25,067 nt of DNA, taken from IMG/VR virus record IMGVR_UViG_3300005329_000027, positions 1-25,067 of that record; one strand, given 5' to 3'. The DNA is from a virus. The notes beneath the pieces were generated by a model that saw only the letters and a list, made by a program, of their open reading frames with translations, ran no database searches and was not told where the DNA came from. A program made the position numbers and the translations under genes. Below are positions 2,765 through 15,651 of this stretch, piece by piece; positions within the stretch are counted from its first letter, which is position 1, and each line of letters begins with the position of its first letter.

Positions 2765-3010
2765 GTGTCTAGGACAAACATATCCGATTACGTGCGGCCG
2801 ATAGCCGAAGCGCCGGTATTGGACGGGGTAGAGTATGGACCGTGCCTCCTGGGCCGGACCGATCGAGAAGAGGCATGGACGGTCGGGCGATGGAACGGAG
2901 AGGCGTGGATCGACAGTGATGGCTGGACCTTTGATCCAGTGGTCTTCGCCCCCTTGGGAACGCCTAGTGAGGTTCTGGCCTTTCTAAGTCTTGCTCAATC
3001 AGGCTCATGA
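2765..3010 (+). CDS. DUF551-like small phage protein
   Basis: 81 residues from a GTG at 2765, chosen because GGAGG ends 4 bases before it; the longer reading from an ATG at 2669 has no comparable site. The pattern is that of small phage proteins of the DUF551 kind: RPIAEAP near the start, VGRWNGEAWIDSDGW in the middle, and a closing aromatic/Pro segment (FDPVVFAPLG). The role of these proteins is unknown; they are common in early or accessory phage regions. Its last 47 bp overlap the 3' end of the convergent repressor gene. It lies downstream of the operator at 2638-2649, so it could be repressed together with the leftward operon. Confidence 0.6.
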   Translation: MSRTNISDYVRPIAEAPVLDGVEYGPCLLGRTDREEAWTVGRWNGEAWIDSDGWTFDPVVFAPLGTPSEVLAFLSLAQSGS

Positions 3011-3380
3011 TCAGGTGCATCACCCGCTTGGCCTCGTCGGTATTGGCATGCATCGGCACCCCCAACGAGATACACAGATGGGCGGAGACATGCGCGACCA
3101 TCGCCAGAAGGTGCAACACCGCCGAATCGGCCGGCGGTTTTTGAGTCTCGGTAAAAAGCAAATCCGCGGCCGGCACTTTCAGCGAGTTCGCCAGGGCAAG
3201 GATCGCGAGGATATTGCGCCCGCTGTAGGTCGTTTTCGATAGGTAGTCGTGAGCCAGGCCGGCTTTCAGGCAGACCTCACGGACCGTGCGGTGCTGCTGC
3301 TTGGCAATCGCCGCAACGCGCGCCCGGAACGCTTCGTCGTCCCATTCGCTGCCCTGCGTTTTCCCGTTGTCGGCGCTCAT
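2964..3380 (-). CDS. HTH transcriptional repressor (CI-like role)
   Basis: 138 residues from the ATG at 3380. AGGA lies just upstream at normal spacing, whereas the ATG at 3398 has none. Residues ~20-75 form an Xre/CI-type helix-turn-helix: ARVAAIAKQQHRTVREVCLK, then AGLAHDYLSKTTYSGRNILA, then ALANSLKVPAADLLF. The remainder (~80-138) is helical and probably mediates multimerisation. It is shorter than lambda CI and has no LexA-type Ala-Gly cleavage site or protease dyad that I can see, so induction is unlikely to be by RecA-stimulated self-cleavage. It lies between two early regions whose control regions carry the same near-palindrome, fitting a lysogeny repressor. Its 3' end overlaps a convergent gene by 47 bp. 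Confidence 0.75.
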   Translation of the reverse strand: MSADNGKTQGSEWDDEAFRARVAAIAKQQHRTVREVCLKAGLAHDYLSKTTYSGRNILAILALANSLKVPAADLLFTETQKPPADSAVLHLLAMVAHVSAHLCISLGVPMHANTDEAKRVMHLIMSLIEQDLERPEPH

Positions 3381-3415
3381 CGACTTCCTGACTACCATAA
3401 CGGCACGCCGCTCAC

Positions 3416-3427
3416 AGATTATTTTCT
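3416..3427. promoter_or_regulatory. Putative degenerate operator upstream of repressor gene
   Basis: AGATTATTTTCT shares the outer AGAT...TCT of the two perfect copies and lies 35 bp before the repressor start, where a repressor-gene promoter should be. It may serve autoregulation. It is weaker evidence than the two identical copies because the centre differs. Confidence 0.35.
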
Positions 3428-3451
3428 GTACTCCATCCCGGCCCGAAAGTC

Positions 3452-3481
3452 TTTACGGTTTAGATAAAAATCTATGATAAT
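3452..3481 (+). promoter_or_regulatory. Candidate rightward early promoter with embedded operator
   Basis: TTTACG (3452-3457) and GATAAT (3476-3481) with an 18-base spacer form a plausible sigma-70 promoter. TAGATAAAAATCTA (3461-3474), a 14-bp version of the operator, lies inside the spacer. Transcription would begin near 3488-3490, right at the ATG at 3489, which lacks a ribosome binding site. A leaderless transcript, as for lambda cI from pRM, would fit. Assigned by eye. Confidence 0.4.
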
Positions 3482-3488
3482 CGTCGGC

Positions 3489-3746
3489 ATGAGACTGTCT
3501 GCCGACGATCTGCTCTGCCTCGCCCGCGCCTATTCGGAGTGCGCCGGCGTCTCGCTGATCACGACGGGCGTTCGCGCCGCCGGCAACGATAAGCTGTTCG
3601 TTCGCCTGGCAACCGGCCGCACCTGCACGGTGCGCTCGCTGGAGCGCGCGGCGCGGTGGTTTGCGTGCAACTGGCCTGTCGGCCTGGACTGGCCGGAGGG
3701 CATTCCGCGCCCGGAGCCGTGCTCCGACCGAGACCGGGCAGCGTGA
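3489..3746 (+). CDS. Small Cro-like early protein (putative DNA-binding)
   Basis: 85 residues from the ATG at 3489 (an in-frame ATG at 3474 would add five). The shorter start is preferred because the candidate -10 box covers 3476-3481 and the sequence from MRLSADDLLCLARAY onward looks like the natural beginning. A divergent helix-turn-helix-like pattern can be read: LARAYSECAGVSLITTGVRA, a GNDKLFVRLATGRTCTVRSL segment, then an aromatic tail (RWFACNWPVGLDWPEGIPRP). It is divergent to the repressor gene and first in the rightward direction, the position of Cro in lambdoid phages. The parS-like palindrome begins on its last stop-codon base. Confidence 0.6.
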   Translation: MRLSADDLLCLARAYSECAGVSLITTGVRAAGNDKLFVRLATGRTCTVRSLERAARWFACNWPVGLDWPEGIPRPEPCSDRDRAA

Positions 3747-3761
3747 GTTTCACGTGAAACA
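3746..3761. promoter_or_regulatory. parS-like centromere sequence
   Basis: AGTTTCACGTGAAACA differs from the bacterial chromosomal parS consensus TGTTTCACGTGAAACA only at the first base. The inner 14 bp are a perfect palindrome. parS is bound by ParB/Spo0J, which spreads and works with ParA and SMC in chromosome partition; most parS sites lie near the chromosomal origin. The site starts on the last base of the upstream stop codon, inside a 114-bp gap before the next gene. No ParA or ParB gene is seen in the window, so host ParB would be the natural ligand. It could instead be an operator for a phage protein that reads the same palindrome. Confidence 0.7.
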
Positions 3762-3860
3762 CCGTCCCGCCCGGCCGCGCCGTGCCGCGTTGTCGCGAGC
3801 CTCCACGGCAGGGGGGCGCGTCGCCGGGCGGGGCCGCAAGAGCGGGCTGGGGGGCTGAGC

Positions 3861-4478
3861 ATGGACGGCGAACAGCCCGAAGCCTTCCCGCTTGTACGCT
3901 ACGACGAGATGTGCCGCGCCATCGACGCCGCCTATCAAGTCGATGAGGTCAAAGACATCAGGGACAAGGCGCGGGCGATGGAAGTCTACCTGCGCCAAGC
4001 CAAGAACACGGAAGCCGAGCGTCGCGCATGCGAGATCCGATTGCGGGCCGAAAGGAAGGCCGGGTCGCTTCTAGCCGAGAAGGAGAAGGCGAAAGCGGCT
4101 CCCGGCAATCAATATACTGGACCGGTAACACCGGTTGACTGGTCCAACTCGCCACCGACCCTTCGCGATCTCGGCATCTCCAAGAAGCAATCCTCCGATT
4201 GGCAGCGCCTTGCCGCCGTGCCGGAGGAGCAATTCGAGGCGGCGCTTTCCGATCTCAAGGAGAGGCCAACTACAGCCGGCATCATCGGCAGGGTTCATAA
4301 ACAAGAACCAGTCGAAGACGACGCCCTGTGGCTATGGGGCCGCCTCTTGGATTTCGAGCGGCGCGGGTTGCTGACCCGCAGCTTCGACGAGGTGTGCCGA
4401 ACGATGGTGCCACACATGCGCGAGACCGTCCGCGAATTGGCGCCGCAAATTTCCAAATGGCTAGGGAGGGATCAATGA
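3861..4478 (+). CDS. Conserved phage protein with probable DNA-binding segment
   Basis: 205 residues. It has a charged helical N-terminal half (AMEVYLRQAKNTEAERRACE at 35-54, then RLRAERKAGSLLAEKEKAK), a flexible Gly/Pro/Thr stretch, and a segment PPTLRDLGISKKQSSDWQRL (99-118) that resembles a helix-turn-helix; a further helical domain follows. I recall similar proteins in many temperate phages near replication genes, with no firm function. GGGGGG lies upstream of the ATG. First gene of the long rightward operon, and the first gene after the parS-like palindrome (about 100 bp), so a partition- or replication-related DNA-binding role is conceivable but unproven. Confidence 0.65.
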   Translation: MDGEQPEAFPLVRYDEMCRAIDAAYQVDEVKDIRDKARAMEVYLRQAKNTEAERRACEIRLRAERKAGSLLAEKEKAKAAPGNQYTGPVTPVDWSNSPPTLRDLGISKKQSSDWQRLAAVPEEQFEAALSDLKERPTTAGIIGRVHKQEPVEDDALWLWGRLLDFERRGLLTRSFDEVCRTMVPHMRETVRELAPQISKWLGRDQ

Positions 4479-5849: not shown

Positions 5850-5864
5850 CCAGTGGAGACGACC

Positions 5865-6584
5865 ATGCGTACAATTGTATTATCGACCGCCGCTATCATC
5901 GCCCTCGCCCTCGGCATGGCGCCGGCGCACGCCGTTCTACAAATCGCCTGGGACTTCGGAGGAACGACCGGCGGCTGCGTCGACAACACCGGGTGCGACC
6001 TCAACCTGGCTGTTGGCACGCTTCAGATCGGTGACCAGAACATCGGCGGACTACAAATCAACGGGTCGATCCAGACGTCGGCCAAGGGCACGACCAACAT
6101 CCTCAACACGTCCTCGTTGAGCGTCGTCAACACGACCGGCGCCAGCATCGATTATGCCCTAGCAGTCGGCGACACCGATTTCGTCGGGCCGGTCACGAGC
6201 TTTAGTGCATCGGGCTCCGGCACATGGCAGACCGCCGCCGGGTCGACCATCACGATGAACTGGTACAACGACGCGGGCAACAATCAGGGCGCCGACACCA
6301 CAACCGACACGCCGGGCGTTTTGTTGCACACATTCAGCGATACCGCCGGGCCGCTGACCGACGCCTTCGCGACCTCGCTGGTGGGGCCGGCGAACGACCC
6401 CTCGCTGTTCAGCATGACCGAGACGGCGAGCGGGGCGCTGGTGGCCGGCGGGCAGCTTGTCAGCCGCGGCCAGACCGAGATCAAGGAGCTGGTCGCCACG
6501 GTGCCCGAGCCGGGCAGCCTGGCGTTGCTGGGCGGGGCGCTCCTGGGCATAGGCGCAATCCTTCGCCGGCGACGCCTCGGGTGA
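5865..6584 (+). CDS. Secreted PEP-CTERM sorting-domain protein
   Basis: 239 residues from the ATG at 5865, with GGAG six bases upstream; a GTG at 5853 would add four residues before the signal. N-terminal signal peptide: MRTIVLSTAAIIALALGMAP ending AHA (likely cleavage after residue 23). The mature part is Gly/Thr/Asn/Ser-rich and beta-like, with few charges and one Cys pair (GGCVDNTGC). The C-terminus is a textbook PEP-CTERM tail: VPEPGSLALLGGALLGIGAI (213-232), then a run of four Arg. In bacteria this tail is recognised by exosortase (EpsH family), which sorts the protein to the envelope or biofilm matrix. The gene is embedded in the phage early operon: 15 bp after the methyltransferase and with its stop overlapping the next start (GTGA). 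A phage-borne envelope protein suggests lysogenic conversion or superinfection effects. It needs a host exosortase. Confidence 0.85.
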   Translation: MRTIVLSTAAIIALALGMAPAHAVLQIAWDFGGTTGGCVDNTGCDLNLAVGTLQIGDQNIGGLQINGSIQTSAKGTTNILNTSSLSVVNTTGASIDYALAVGDTDFVGPVTSFSASGSGTWQTAAGSTITMNWYNDAGNNQGADTTTDTPGVLLHTFSDTAGPLTDAFATSLVGPANDPSLFSMTETASGALVAGGQLVSRGQTEIKELVATVPEPGSLALLGGALLGIGAILRRRRLG

Positions 6585-6844: not shown

Positions 6845-7070
6845 GTCGCCCCGGCCCGCGCCGCCCCCGCCCAACCGCGCGGTCGTCAGCGACGACGGCG
6901 TCATCCGGCTGATGGTCTACGCCTCCGGCATCGCCGACCCGCTCGGGGTCGTCGAGCTGTCGGCCGAGGCCGCGGCGCGGCTGGCGGCCGATCTGATCGG
7001 TGCCGCGGCGGCCCGGCTGGAGCGCGAGCGCAACGGCCGCATCGGCGTGCGAAGGGGGCCGGCGCAGTGA
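6837..7070 (+). CDS. Small hypothetical protein
   Basis: 77 residues from the ATG at 6837, overlapping the previous stop by 8 bp, with a GGCG-rich stretch upstream; an ATG at 6822 is possible but lies deeper in the previous gene. Pro-rich start (RPAPPPPNRAV), a short beta-like part (VIRLMVYASGIADPLGVVEL), then an Ala/Arg-rich helix. The stop overlaps the GTG of the radical SAM gene. Function unknown. Confidence 0.55.
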   Translation: MGESPRPAPPPPNRAVVSDDGVIRLMVYASGIADPLGVVELSAEAAARLAADLIGAAAARLERERNGRIGVRRGPAQ

Positions 7071-7906
7071 GCCGCCTGATCCGCGTCTTCCCGCGCCGCA
7101 CCAAGGCGACGCCCGACGACGACCTAGTGTATTGCGGACCGCCCGACCTGTTCGCCGAGGCGGACGAGGTGCATGTTTCGGTGTCGTTCACCTGGGACCG
7201 GGACCGCGCCGAGCAGCTCGCCGAGCAGTGGCGCTGGGTCGCCCCGGTCAAGGTCGGCGGCGTCGCGTATGGCGACGACAGCCTCGAGTTCATTCCAGGC
7301 CGCTACGTCAAGCCGGGGTACACGATCACCTCGCGCGGGTGTCCGCGGCGCTGCTGGTTCTGCGGCGTGTGGAAGAAGTGGCCCGAGCCGAACCTGCTCC
7401 CGATCGTGGATGGCTGGAACGTGCTCGACGACAATTTGCTGGCCTGCCCGACGCCGCACGTCGAGGCGGTCTTCGCCATGCTGCGCCGGCAGAAGCGGCG
7501 GGTCGAATTTACCGGCGGGCTCGAGGCGCTGGCGCTCGAGGACTATCAGGTTGAGTTGTTGGCGAGCCTCTCACCGCGCCCAACCATGTTCTTCGCCTAT
7601 GATCCTGGCGACGCGTTCGAGACGCTGGCGATCGCCGCGAGGAAGCTGCTTGCTGCTGGGTTCACGCGCGCTTCGCACCGAATGCGCTGCTATGTCCTGA
7701 TCGGGCATCCCAAGGACAGTTTCGACGCCGCGGCGGCCCGCCTCGGCCAGATGGTCGAGATAGGCTTTACGCCATTTGCCATGCTGTGGCGGCCGGAGAA
7801 GCACGAGCGGCGCTATACGCCTGGACCGCAGTGGCGAGCGTTCCAACGGCGGTGGGCGCGGCCGGCGATGATCCACGCGCGGCAGCCGCGGGGTCTCGCG
7901 GCATGA
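7067..7906 (+). CDS. Phage radical SAM protein
   Basis: 279 residues, GTG start overlapping the previous stop. The radical SAM signature CPRRCWFC (C92, C96, C99; CX3CX2C) sits in GYTITSRGCPRRCWFC, preceded by an N-terminal region with VHVSVSFTWD that could be a small Rossmann-like domain, and followed by strand-helix repeats of a partial TIM barrel (VEFTGGLEAL, PTMFFAYD, RCYVLIGHP). Such enzymes bind a 4Fe-4S cluster and cleave S-adenosylmethionine to start radical chemistry. Phage members are frequent but mostly without known substrate; nucleic-acid or protein modification is the usual guess. Next to a PAPS-reductase-like gene and with two methyltransferases in the same operon. Confidence 0.8.
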   Translation: MSRLIRVFPRRTKATPDDDLVYCGPPDLFAEADEVHVSVSFTWDRDRAEQLAEQWRWVAPVKVGGVAYGDDSLEFIPGRYVKPGYTITSRGCPRRCWFCGVWKKWPEPNLLPIVDGWNVLDDNLLACPTPHVEAVFAMLRRQKRRVEFTGGLEALALEDYQVELLASLSPRPTMFFAYDPGDAFETLAIAARKLLAAGFTRASHRMRCYVLIGHPKDSFDAAAARLGQMVEIGFTPFAMLWRPEKHERRYTPGPQWRAFQRRWARPAMIHARQPRGLAA

Positions 7907-13708: not shown

Positions 13709-14140
13709 ATGCCGCGTACTTCCGCCCAGGAACGGGCGGCCGCGTTTTACCGCGCGGACAACACCGTTCGGGAACCACCGAGAGAGTTGTCGCAGCGGGC
13801 AAAGGCGATATGGCGTGAAATCGTCAGATCGAAGCCGTTCGACTGGTTCGACGGCGGTTCCTTTGGTTTGTTGGCCGATCACTGTGAGACGCAGGCACGT
13901 CTGGAGGAGTGTTGGGTAGTTCTGCGGAAGTTGCCGGCGGGTTGTAACGATGCGCGGGCGATCATGGCGGAAGTGAAGATTTTGCGGCCAAACTTCGGCA
14001 GAAGCGCGGCGCTGTTGCGGTTGCCGGTGCAGTACACGGTCGACCGGCGGGCGACGCTGGCCGGCGAGAAGGCGCCGGAGGGGCAGGGTGATGTGCTGAT
14101 CGGCGGGCAGGCGGCCGAGCGGTTCAGGGTGGTTGGGTGA
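13709..14140 (+). CDS. terS: Terminase small subunit, P27 family
   Basis: 143 residues. YRADNTVREPPRELSQRAKA (14-33) followed by IWREIVRSKPFDWFDGGSFG, then LLADHCETQARLEECWVVLR, is the typical P27-family pattern: a helical DNA-recognition and oligomerisation core, then a more variable C-terminal part contacting the large subunit. The protein recognises the packaging site and feeds DNA to the motor. Its stop overlaps the GTG of the large-subunit gene (GTGA), implying coupled synthesis. No strong ribosome binding site precedes its ATG. Confidence 0.85.
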   Translation: MPRTSAQERAAAFYRADNTVREPPRELSQRAKAIWREIVRSKPFDWFDGGSFGLLADHCETQARLEECWVVLRKLPAGCNDARAIMAEVKILRPNFGRSAALLRLPVQYTVDRRATLAGEKAPEGQGDVLIGGQAAERFRVVG

Positions 14141-15651
14141 GTGAGCTCCGGTCTGACCGGATCATCCGTTTTTGCGAGAAGTACCTGGTCGTCCCCGAGG
14201 GCGCCGACGTCGGCAAGCCGGTGCGGCTGCGCGAGTGGCAGCGCGACATAATTCGCCAGATCTACGACACGCCGACCCGGCAGGCGATCGTCACGATGCC
14301 GCGGAAGCAAGGTAAGACGGCGTTGTGCGCGATGCTGGTGCTGGCGCACGTCATCGGGCCGGAGTCGCAACGCAACAGCCAGGTGTACAGCGCGGCGCAA
14401 TCGCGGCAGCAGGCGGCGCTCGTGTACGATTTGGCGAGCAAGATGGTCCGCATGTCGCGCGAGTTGTCGGACCCCAACATGGTGGTGTGCCGGGAGCACG
14501 CGAAGGAGTTGTTTTCGCCCTACACCGGAGTGCGCTATCGGGCATTGGCGGCGGAGAGCTCGACGGCTTACGGGTTGTCGCCGGCGCTGGTGATTCACGA
14601 CGAATTGGGCCAGGTGCGTGGGCCGCGGTCGGAATTGTACGATGCGCTCGAGACCGCGATGGGGGCCCACCCGAACCCGCTGAGCATCGTGATCTCCACC
14701 CAGGCGCCGACCTCGGGCGACTTGCTCTCGCAACTCATCGACTATGCCGAGACCGGCGCGGACGAGCGGACGAAGTTGATCTTTTTCGGTGCCCCGGACG
14801 ACGCGGCGCTGGACGATCCGGCCACCTGGCGGCGAGCCAACCCGGCGCTTGGGGATTTTCTGAATTTCGACGAAATTCAAGGGCTCGCCGAGAAGGCGCG
14901 GCGGATGCCGGCGTTCGAGGCGAGCTTCCGGAACCTCCACCTCAATCAGCGCGTATCGGCCGACGCAGCGCTGTTCAGTGTCGGCGTGTGGACCGCCAAC
15001 GGCGCCGAGCCGGACATGGAGGCGTTTGCGGAGGGGCCGGTTTACGGCGGGCTCGACCTGTCGGCGCGGCAGGATCTGACGGCGCTGGTGCTGCTCGCGG
15101 AGAAGCCGAAAGGCTACTGGAACGTGTGGTGTCATTTCTGGACGCCGGCCGACACGCTGCGCGAGCGCGCCCAGCGCGACCGGGCGCCATACGATCTGTG
15201 GGCCGAGCAGGGCTGCCTGACGGCGGTGCCGGGGGTCAGCATCGACTACGGCTATCTGGCGGCGCGGCTGGCGACGCTGCGCAGCCAAGTGCGGTTCAGA
15301 ACGATTTTGTTCGACCGCTGGCGCATCGACGAATTGCGCATGGCGTTGCAGGCGCACGGTGTCGGCCAACTTCCGCTCGAGGAATGCGGCCAGGGCTACC
15401 GCGACATGGCGGGCGCGCTCGACGCGCTGGAGACGCTGGCATTGCAGGAGCGGCTGCGCCACGGCATGCACCCGGTGCTGACGATGTGCGCCAGCAATGC
15501 GACGGTGGTCACCGACCCGGCGGGAAACAGGAAACTGGAGAAGGCGAAATCGTCCGGCCGCATCGACGGCATGCAGGCACTTGCGATGGCGGCCAAGGGC
15601 GCCACCGCAACGACGGCACCGATGTTCGACCACAGGACGATGGTCGCGTAA
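14137..15651 (+). CDS. terL: Terminase large subunit (ATPase-nuclease)
   Basis: 504 residues, GTG start in the TerS stop. ATPase half: adaptor WQRDII (34-39), Walker A PRKQGKT (55-61), Walker B LVIHDE (151-156) with D155/E156, and a coupling STQAPTSGD motif (188-195 region). Nuclease half (RNase H-like): GGLDLSARQD with D307, ILFDRWR with D393, and GRIDGM with D477 as metal ligands. This is the HK97-type motor that cuts concatemers and pumps DNA into proheads. Length is normal for the family. A hairpin terminator follows the stop by about 30 bp. Confidence 0.93.
   Translation: MSELRSDRIIRFCEKYLVVPEGADVGKPVRLREWQRDIIRQIYDTPTRQAIVTMPRKQGKTALCAMLVLAHVIGPESQRNSQVYSAAQSRQQAALVYDLASKMVRMSRELSDPNMVVCREHAKELFSPYTGVRYRALAAESSTAYGLSPALVIHDELGQVRGPRSELYDALETAMGAHPNPLSIVISTQAPTSGDLLSQLIDYAETGADERTKLIFFGAPDDAALDDPATWRRANPALGDFLNFDEIQGLAEKARRMPAFEASFRNLHLNQRVSADAALFSVGVWTANGAEPDMEAFAEGPVYGGLDLSARQDLTALVLLAEKPKGYWNVWCHFWTPADTLRERAQRDRAPYDLWAEQGCLTAVPGVSIDYGYLAARLATLRSQVRFRTILFDRWRIDELRMALQAHGVGQLPLEECGQGYRDMAGALDALETLALQERLRHGMHPVLTMCASNATVVTDPAGNRKLEKAKSSGRIDGMQALAMAAKGATATTAPMFDHRTMVA

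Follow-up and report, generated by a model that had tools for sequence, protein, structure and literature searches.

Partition sites in chromosomes, plasmids and phages

Phage-plasmids, such as P1 and the extrachromosomal mycobacteriophages, carry their own ParAB proteins and their own centromere. Phage-plasmids with their own ParABS are a known class (PMC7157519). In SGI1, two mimics of the IncC parS bind the plasmid ParB and raise the stability of SGI1 (PMC10954446). Lacachita-type phages are integrase-less and encode a ParB-like orphan (PMC10286716), a survey of ParB-like proteins in phages is available (PMC12704722), and lambda with a parS site has served as an imaging tool (PMC13190303). 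Among the matches listed in the open-licence literature, no report of a natural phage with a host-type parS was found.

Chromosomal parS sites include TGTTTCACGTGAAACA in Hyphomonas, t/cGTTt/cCACGTGAAAca in Caulobacter, TGTTCCACGTGGAACG in Myxococcus and AGTTTCACGTGAAACT in S. pneumoniae, and the review table from which these are taken gives both natural parS types for chromosomes (PMC7022226). PMC10197239, PMC7022226 and PMC4820964 each contain one of four site sequences. Exact GTTYCACGTGRAAC occurs merely 2–4 times per genome in eight proteobacterial genomes, and the reversed control is absent from them. The 14-mer was counted in 13 genomes, of which these eight have 2–4 copies, three have 0 or 1, and two have 14 and 80; the last five were chosen for their Cro-like gene. 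In the stretches read from three alphaproteobacterial genomes, seven sites have parA and parB candidates, recognized by motifs, no further than ∼3.5 kb away, and a further site in one of the three lies ∼13 kb from parB.

A parS-type palindrome in the window

The stretch of DNA analyzed here, termed the window, is the 25,067-b virus record IMGVR_UViG_3300005329_000027, of class linear and with a GC content of 66%. At the 3′ end of an early gene it contains AGTTTCACGTGAAACA, which agrees with TGTTTCACGTGAAACA at 15 of 16 positions; the sole mismatch is base 1, and the 14-bp core is exact (Table 1). An earlier sequence-only reading had proposed a near-perfect parS here, and a scan of the window bears this out: with up to three mismatches to TGTTTCACGTGAAACA allowed, this site is the single match against an expectation of 0.04, and 4 of 100 shuffled windows contained at least one match. 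AGTTTCACGTGAAACA falls under a definition of parS that admits natural variants of the 16-bp palindrome TGTTTCACGTGAAACA as well as the palindrome itself. There is one copy of the 14-mer in the window record. The earlier estimate that an exact 14-mer would arise by chance about once in 10,000 is correct for equal bases, and the event is even less likely in this DNA because of its 66% GC. The site had also been placed in a non-coding gap right after the Cro-like gene. This holds for bases 2–16, which lie inside the 114-b gap at 3747–3860 between ORF 3474–3746 and ORF 3861–4478; base 1 is the last letter of the TGA stop codon of the first of these.

Table 1. Features of the window around the parS-type site and elsewhere.
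Feature	Coordinates	Strand	Remarks
Probable recombinase	304–1464	−	By position
RecE/YqaJ-type exonuclease	1693–2598	−	Leftward early operon
CI-position repressor-type gene	2964–3398	−	Divergent; position, analogy with four named phages
Repressor/Cro control region	3399–3473		Promoter-like site 3452–3481 (+)
Cro-position gene, phrog_7669	3474–3746 (alternative start 3489)	+	Stop codon ends at base 1 of the site
parS-type palindrome AGTTTCACGTGAAACA	3746–3761		Core 3747–3760 exact; three sites in five records against 0.05 expected
GC-rich inverted repeat	3764–3834	+	Just 3′ of the site
Early gene, phrog_33995, unknown function	3861–4478	+	Family match
Terminase large subunit, HK97 type	14137–15651	+	Query for relatives

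In three alphaproteobacterial genomes these 14-mers are neighbours of parAB, and the phage therefore carries the host form. Together with the exact core, the sites in two relatives and the excess of the 16-mer in viral contigs, both described below, these comparisons of sequence give good support to the proposal of a chromosomal-type parS in a phage. The phage with this site probably infects an alphaproteobacterium; no close prophage was found, terminase identity to genome loci being at most 54% among the best 80 of 310 loci.

Genes and elements around the site

The gene that ends in the site had been called Cro-like. By sequence, ORF 3474–3746 belongs to phrog_7669, a family of ‘unknown function’, and no named Cro family was matched in family searches. 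It is divergent from the repressor-type ORF 2964–3398, which has no family match above the curated cut-off. The predicted fold is all-helical (pLDDT 87.8); its PDB matches, the best at E 0.68, are weak and for the most part to Xre-type HTH proteins. In named alphaproteobacterial phages the homologues occupy the cro position: in four of eight fetched they adjoin an annotated CI/Cro-type or phage repressor, and in the remaining four unnamed genes. The label thus rests on position and on the helical predicted fold with its weak matches, and ‘Cro-like’ is a reasonable name for where the gene lies rather than for a proven family. It is used in that sense below.

The phrog_7669 gene is present in 29 of the 385 Alphaproteobacteria genomes drawn and in none of 14 control genomes. 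When 30 alphaproteobacterial genome loci with this gene were inspected for parS-type sites nearby, these were seen in one, from a genome in which the 14-mer occurs 80 times. Named phages with the gene amount to 15 records, ∼10 of them distinct; eight were fetched, with RS1 and vB_PeaS-P1 left out, and no site with two or fewer mismatches was found in the stretches fetched, with several weak ones at three. A search of viral contigs with the Cro-like protein alone found no relatives. In Agrobacterium phage Rivra (L206:6249–6324) and Rhizobium phage RR1-A (L210:6263–6339), the phrog_7669 gene is followed directly by a tRNA gene.

Two other roles for the palindrome were considered and rejected. 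As an operator of the phage repressor it has a competitor, since the repressor/Cro control region bears a different repeated motif, AGATAAAAATCT, within 3455–3473 and again within 2631–2649; AGATTATTTTCT is also found in this region, at 3416–3427. As part of a terminator it fails in that 3350–3950 contains no terminator-like site, the window contains no Rfam family, and 3747–3860 is no more stable than its shuffles. The adjoining inverted repeat has a strong stem, no T-run and a stability no better than shuffles (z −0.66). It falls in a 75-b segment (3762–3836) that is 89% identical between the window and a relative, G007, with flanks on either side that are unalignable as DNA.

Elsewhere in the early region, ORF 304–1464 has no family match; the gene in its place in G007 is RecT (PF03837), and the likeness is confined to a stretch towards the C-terminal side. 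In G010, G011 and L296 the slot of the phrog_33995 gene codes for an orphan ParB-N-like protein. Further along, the window encodes a Radical SAM domain protein (7067–7906) and a protein that matches a PEP-CTERM motif (5853–6584), which has homologues in G007 and G010.

The site in related viral records

A terminase search identified 69 related loci and an exonuclease scan added to these; five records cover the early region (the window, G007, G010, G011 and L296; 142,268 b in total). The window is a fragment, ∼11 kb short by comparison with G007, whose record is taken as near full length because the window bridges its contig ends. Another record, G002, is 99.97% identical to the window from 13673 on and lacks the early region; near-identical records come from the metagenomes 3300005535 and 3300025944. 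No nucleotide relatives of the window were found among named phages, and a search of plasmids with the exonuclease gave no match. Among 22 records searched, the Cro-like gene is held by G007, G010 and G011 only; the Cro-like gene of L296 is the closest to that of the window (62–66%).

In the five records there are three sites within two mismatches of parS, against 0.05 expected. Across 1000 pairs of control palindromes the mean was 0.046 sites and one pair reached three, and 40 first-order simulations of the records gave a mean of 0.05. On these counts a chance origin of the site was rejected. In G007, TGTTCCACGTGGAAAC stands just after the Cro-like gene and before the same GC-rich hairpin, which is the same place as in the window; it agrees with TGTTCCACGTGGAACA at 14 of 16 positions and belongs to the other natural parS type, GTTCCACGTGGAA. 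In G011, TGTTTCACGTGAAACG has the exact core; it is flanked by two leftward ORFs, and the Cro-like gene is 2.2 kb away. Neither G010 nor L296 has a site within two mismatches. Absence from the same place in close relatives, which the earlier reading had named as evidence against its proposal, is therefore seen in part: sites are present in three of the five records, two of them at the same place and of different types, one is elsewhere, and two records have none. Strict conservation is disfavoured because L296, with the closest Cro-like gene, has no site.

The 12-bp core with one mismatch or fewer was found in 2 of 35 terminase relatives, G011 (exact) and G035 (one mismatch), and absence from the rest says little because many are fragments. 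G010 (L196:2374–2410) and L296 (reverse strand, 4294–4330) have a common block 3′ of the recombinase gene, with two imperfect CACGTG sites, TGACACACGTGAAACT ... CTGTTCACGTGG, which have more than two mismatches and were left out of the count.

parS-type sites across viral contigs

In IMG/VR, at least 120 stretches contain the perfect 16-mer, a lower bound in which the sample is the first stretches met, compared with 33 for the control palindrome TGTTTCAGCTGAAACA and 5 for TTGTTCACGTGAACAA, which has the same core and composition as the parS 16-mer. In the first 120 stretches, 94 of 148 14-mer sites have the T and A flanks of full parS; equal bases would give 1 in 16. From simple longest-ORF calls, with sites within 150 b of an end excluded, 57 of 132 16-mer sites fall within ORFs, in loci that are 84% coding, compared with 31 of 31 control sites; for sites with the 14-mer only, the count is 28 of 58. 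Two or more sites per locus were seen in 15 of 108 parS loci versus 0 of 31 controls. A second natural parS variant is present in the same locus in 5 of 169 parS loci, compared with none for ∼300 control palindromes. Arrays of parS-type sites are found in several viral contigs, with five sites in L029, five in L074, three in L087 and eleven, of the mixed variant, in L389.

Many of these sites are near a terminase gene. A phrog_38-type terminase was detected in 40 of 169 parS loci versus 0 of 38 controls, a comparison that leans towards the parS set because the profile was built from six of its terminases. In 18 viral loci an exact core lies 20–142 b upstream of a phrog_38-type terminase gene, as measured from the profile match (L403, L070, L421, L044, L413, L046, L399, L422, L385, L395, L033, L014, L109, L099, L116, L377, L390 and L074); they represent fewer independent cases because related groups are included, and the pairs compared for kinship were all chosen for having the site. 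In L399 (310–349), TGTTCCACGTGGAACA and TGTTTCACGTGAAACA stand 8 b apart before the terminase gene. No site with three or fewer mismatches was found in the 4–6.5 kb around the terminase in eight named relatives of this group (Pelagibacter phages HTVC027P and HTVC023P; 023Pt_psg01, DSL-LC04, MinM2, CRP-901, CRP-810 and Pam1). The terminase-adjacent cores are possibly a larger finding than the window site.

ParB_N was sought in the records of 44 of the 169 loci with parS, selected largely by length: seven matched at E 0.001, five of them over the cut-off. A phrog_9 terminase match was found in 8 of the 44, several of them weak (up to E 1.6e-4), and six of these eight had no ParB_N match. Canonical ParB was matched by tblastn in 3 of the 169 loci, in the stretches examined, and some of the contigs with parS may be bacterial DNA.

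A wider proposal is that host-type parS is a widespread and hitherto unrecognized element of tailed phages, with one or more perfect copies at set positions in diverse phages (after cro, as in the window, or 20–142 bp upstream of a terminase nearest to that of pelagiphages), where it would recruit host ParB, perhaps along with SMC, for segregation, positioning or packaging of the genome. We put this forward tentatively, as an idea somewhat short of an even prospect.

Candidate binding proteins and integration genes

With a threshold of E 0.001, seven of seven records had no match to ParB_N (PF02195; 10 of 14 control genomes positive), tyrosine integrase (PF00589; 14 of 14), resolvase (PF00239; 10 of 14) or rve (PF00665; 6 of 14). 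Canonical ParB proteins from three genomes had no tblastn match in the window or its relatives. In these sequences the phage-plasmid trait of an own parB gene was accordingly not found in canonical form, and the trait of a hijacker, a site with no canonical ParB of its own, was, in a window that is ∼11 kb short of G007.

Weaker, orphan ParB-N-like proteins are encoded in the early operons of G007, G010, G011 and L296. That of G007 matches PDB ParB chains at E 0.004 and the PHROG ‘ParB-like partition protein’ at E 2.7e-5, and because of this last match a phage ParB-like protein is conceivable as a binder. The protein of L296 matches ParB_N at E 0.03, that of G010 is accompanied by MT-A70, and the assignments in G010 and G011 come from reading of the sequence. 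Site and protein occur together in G007 and G011; the window has the site only, and G010 and L296 the protein only.

Possible functions of the site

The window site is a real, non-chance host-type parS, whose function would likely be to hitchhike on the host ParABS. Host ParB probably binds it. As the phage has no canonical ParB, the ParB of the host is proposed as the loader: a ParB–CTP clamp would load at 3746–3761 on infection or in a lysogen and spread along the phage DNA, host ParA, possibly with SMC, would move the ParB-coated DNA and hold it with the nucleoid, and each daughter cell would keep a phage copy. We infer that the prophage is extrachromosomal because there is a repressor/Cro-type switch and no integrase, resolvase or rve domain, as judged from the window and three relatives of 34–36 kb. 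Stable inheritance is the best fit among the proposed uses for the same reason, that none of these domains was found. The full proposal, in which a working host-type parS recruits host ParB and an extrachromosomal prophage is thereby segregated along with the chromosome, is one that we narrowly favour; that segregation or positioning would be the main use of the site is about as likely as not. Stable inheritance of an extrachromosomal prophage would be the simplest gain, with regulation of early genes as the main rival.

In that rival, which corresponds to the silencing suggested in the earlier reading, host ParB would bind and its use would be control, the spreading protein repressing or insulating early genes or competing with transcription, with no role in segregation. 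In the window and G007 the site follows the Cro-like gene and precedes the next early genes, a location consistent with this, and spreading of ParB or KorB silences neighbouring genes elsewhere (PMC4820964; PMC5521831). However, G011 has its site well away from the Cro-like gene, so that the position with respect to the early promoter is not constant, and many viral loci have the site upstream of the terminase instead. Control as the sole use seems unlikely.

The palindrome could also be the target of a phage protein, most likely the orphan ParB-N-like protein, or Cro/CI. Early operons in four relatives encode such proteins, and orphan fusions of phage ParB-like proteins and methyltransferases are known (PMC12704722, PMC10286716). 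Against this, the window site occurs with no recognized protein and G010 and L296 have the protein with no site, both natural forms of the host motif are represented among the sites, and the repressor region bears a repeated motif of its own. We consider a phage protein as the intended binder improbable.

More doubtful still is a reading of the motif as the target of some other host factor, or as a dispersed repeat, as might be suggested by an alphaproteobacterial genome of 1.8 Mb (G319; loci L492 and L465) with 80 copies of GTTTCACGTGAAAC, three of which, in the stretch read, are within a repeat of ∼115 bp, and by the 14 copies of the 14-mer in G161. The ∼115-bp unit was not seen by eye around the window site, most of the genomes counted (8 of 13) hold few copies, these are near parAB in the three examined, and the window record has a single one. 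The least probable reading, a functionless palindrome due to coincidence, could appeal to the two of five records with no site and to the few shuffled windows that match at three or fewer mismatches, but it must contend with the number of sites in the five records, the G007 site of the other natural type at the same place, and the excess of the motif across IMG/VR.

If host ParB does load on phage DNA, phages would join plasmid-borne elements as users of a foreign segregation machine, and the machine used would be that of the host chromosome itself. An integrase-less temperate phage could then be heritable with no partition genes of its own. The sites beside terminase genes raise the question of ParB in packaging or genome positioning during lytic growth.

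Comparison with known systems

The window site shares with chromosomal parS the same 14-bp core, and both natural types are represented in the two settings; it differs from the sites tabulated in PMC7022226 in being one phage-borne copy, away from a chromosomal origin. Lacachita-type phages are similar to several relatives of the window in that no integrase was found and an orphan ParB-like protein is present, whereas a host-type parS is not reported in the accessible text of PMC10286716 and the window has no recognized ParB-like protein. In phage-plasmids an extrachromosomal prophage is segregated by ParB at parS, which here is proposed only; they use their own ParAB, whereas the window and its relatives yielded no canonical ParB. 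A parallel in its logic is SGI1 (PMC10954446): both are mobile elements with a parS-type site for a ParB encoded elsewhere. SGI1 uses the ParABS of a helper plasmid through two sites, whereas the site in the window is of the chromosomal host type, is carried by a phage and is known from its sequence.
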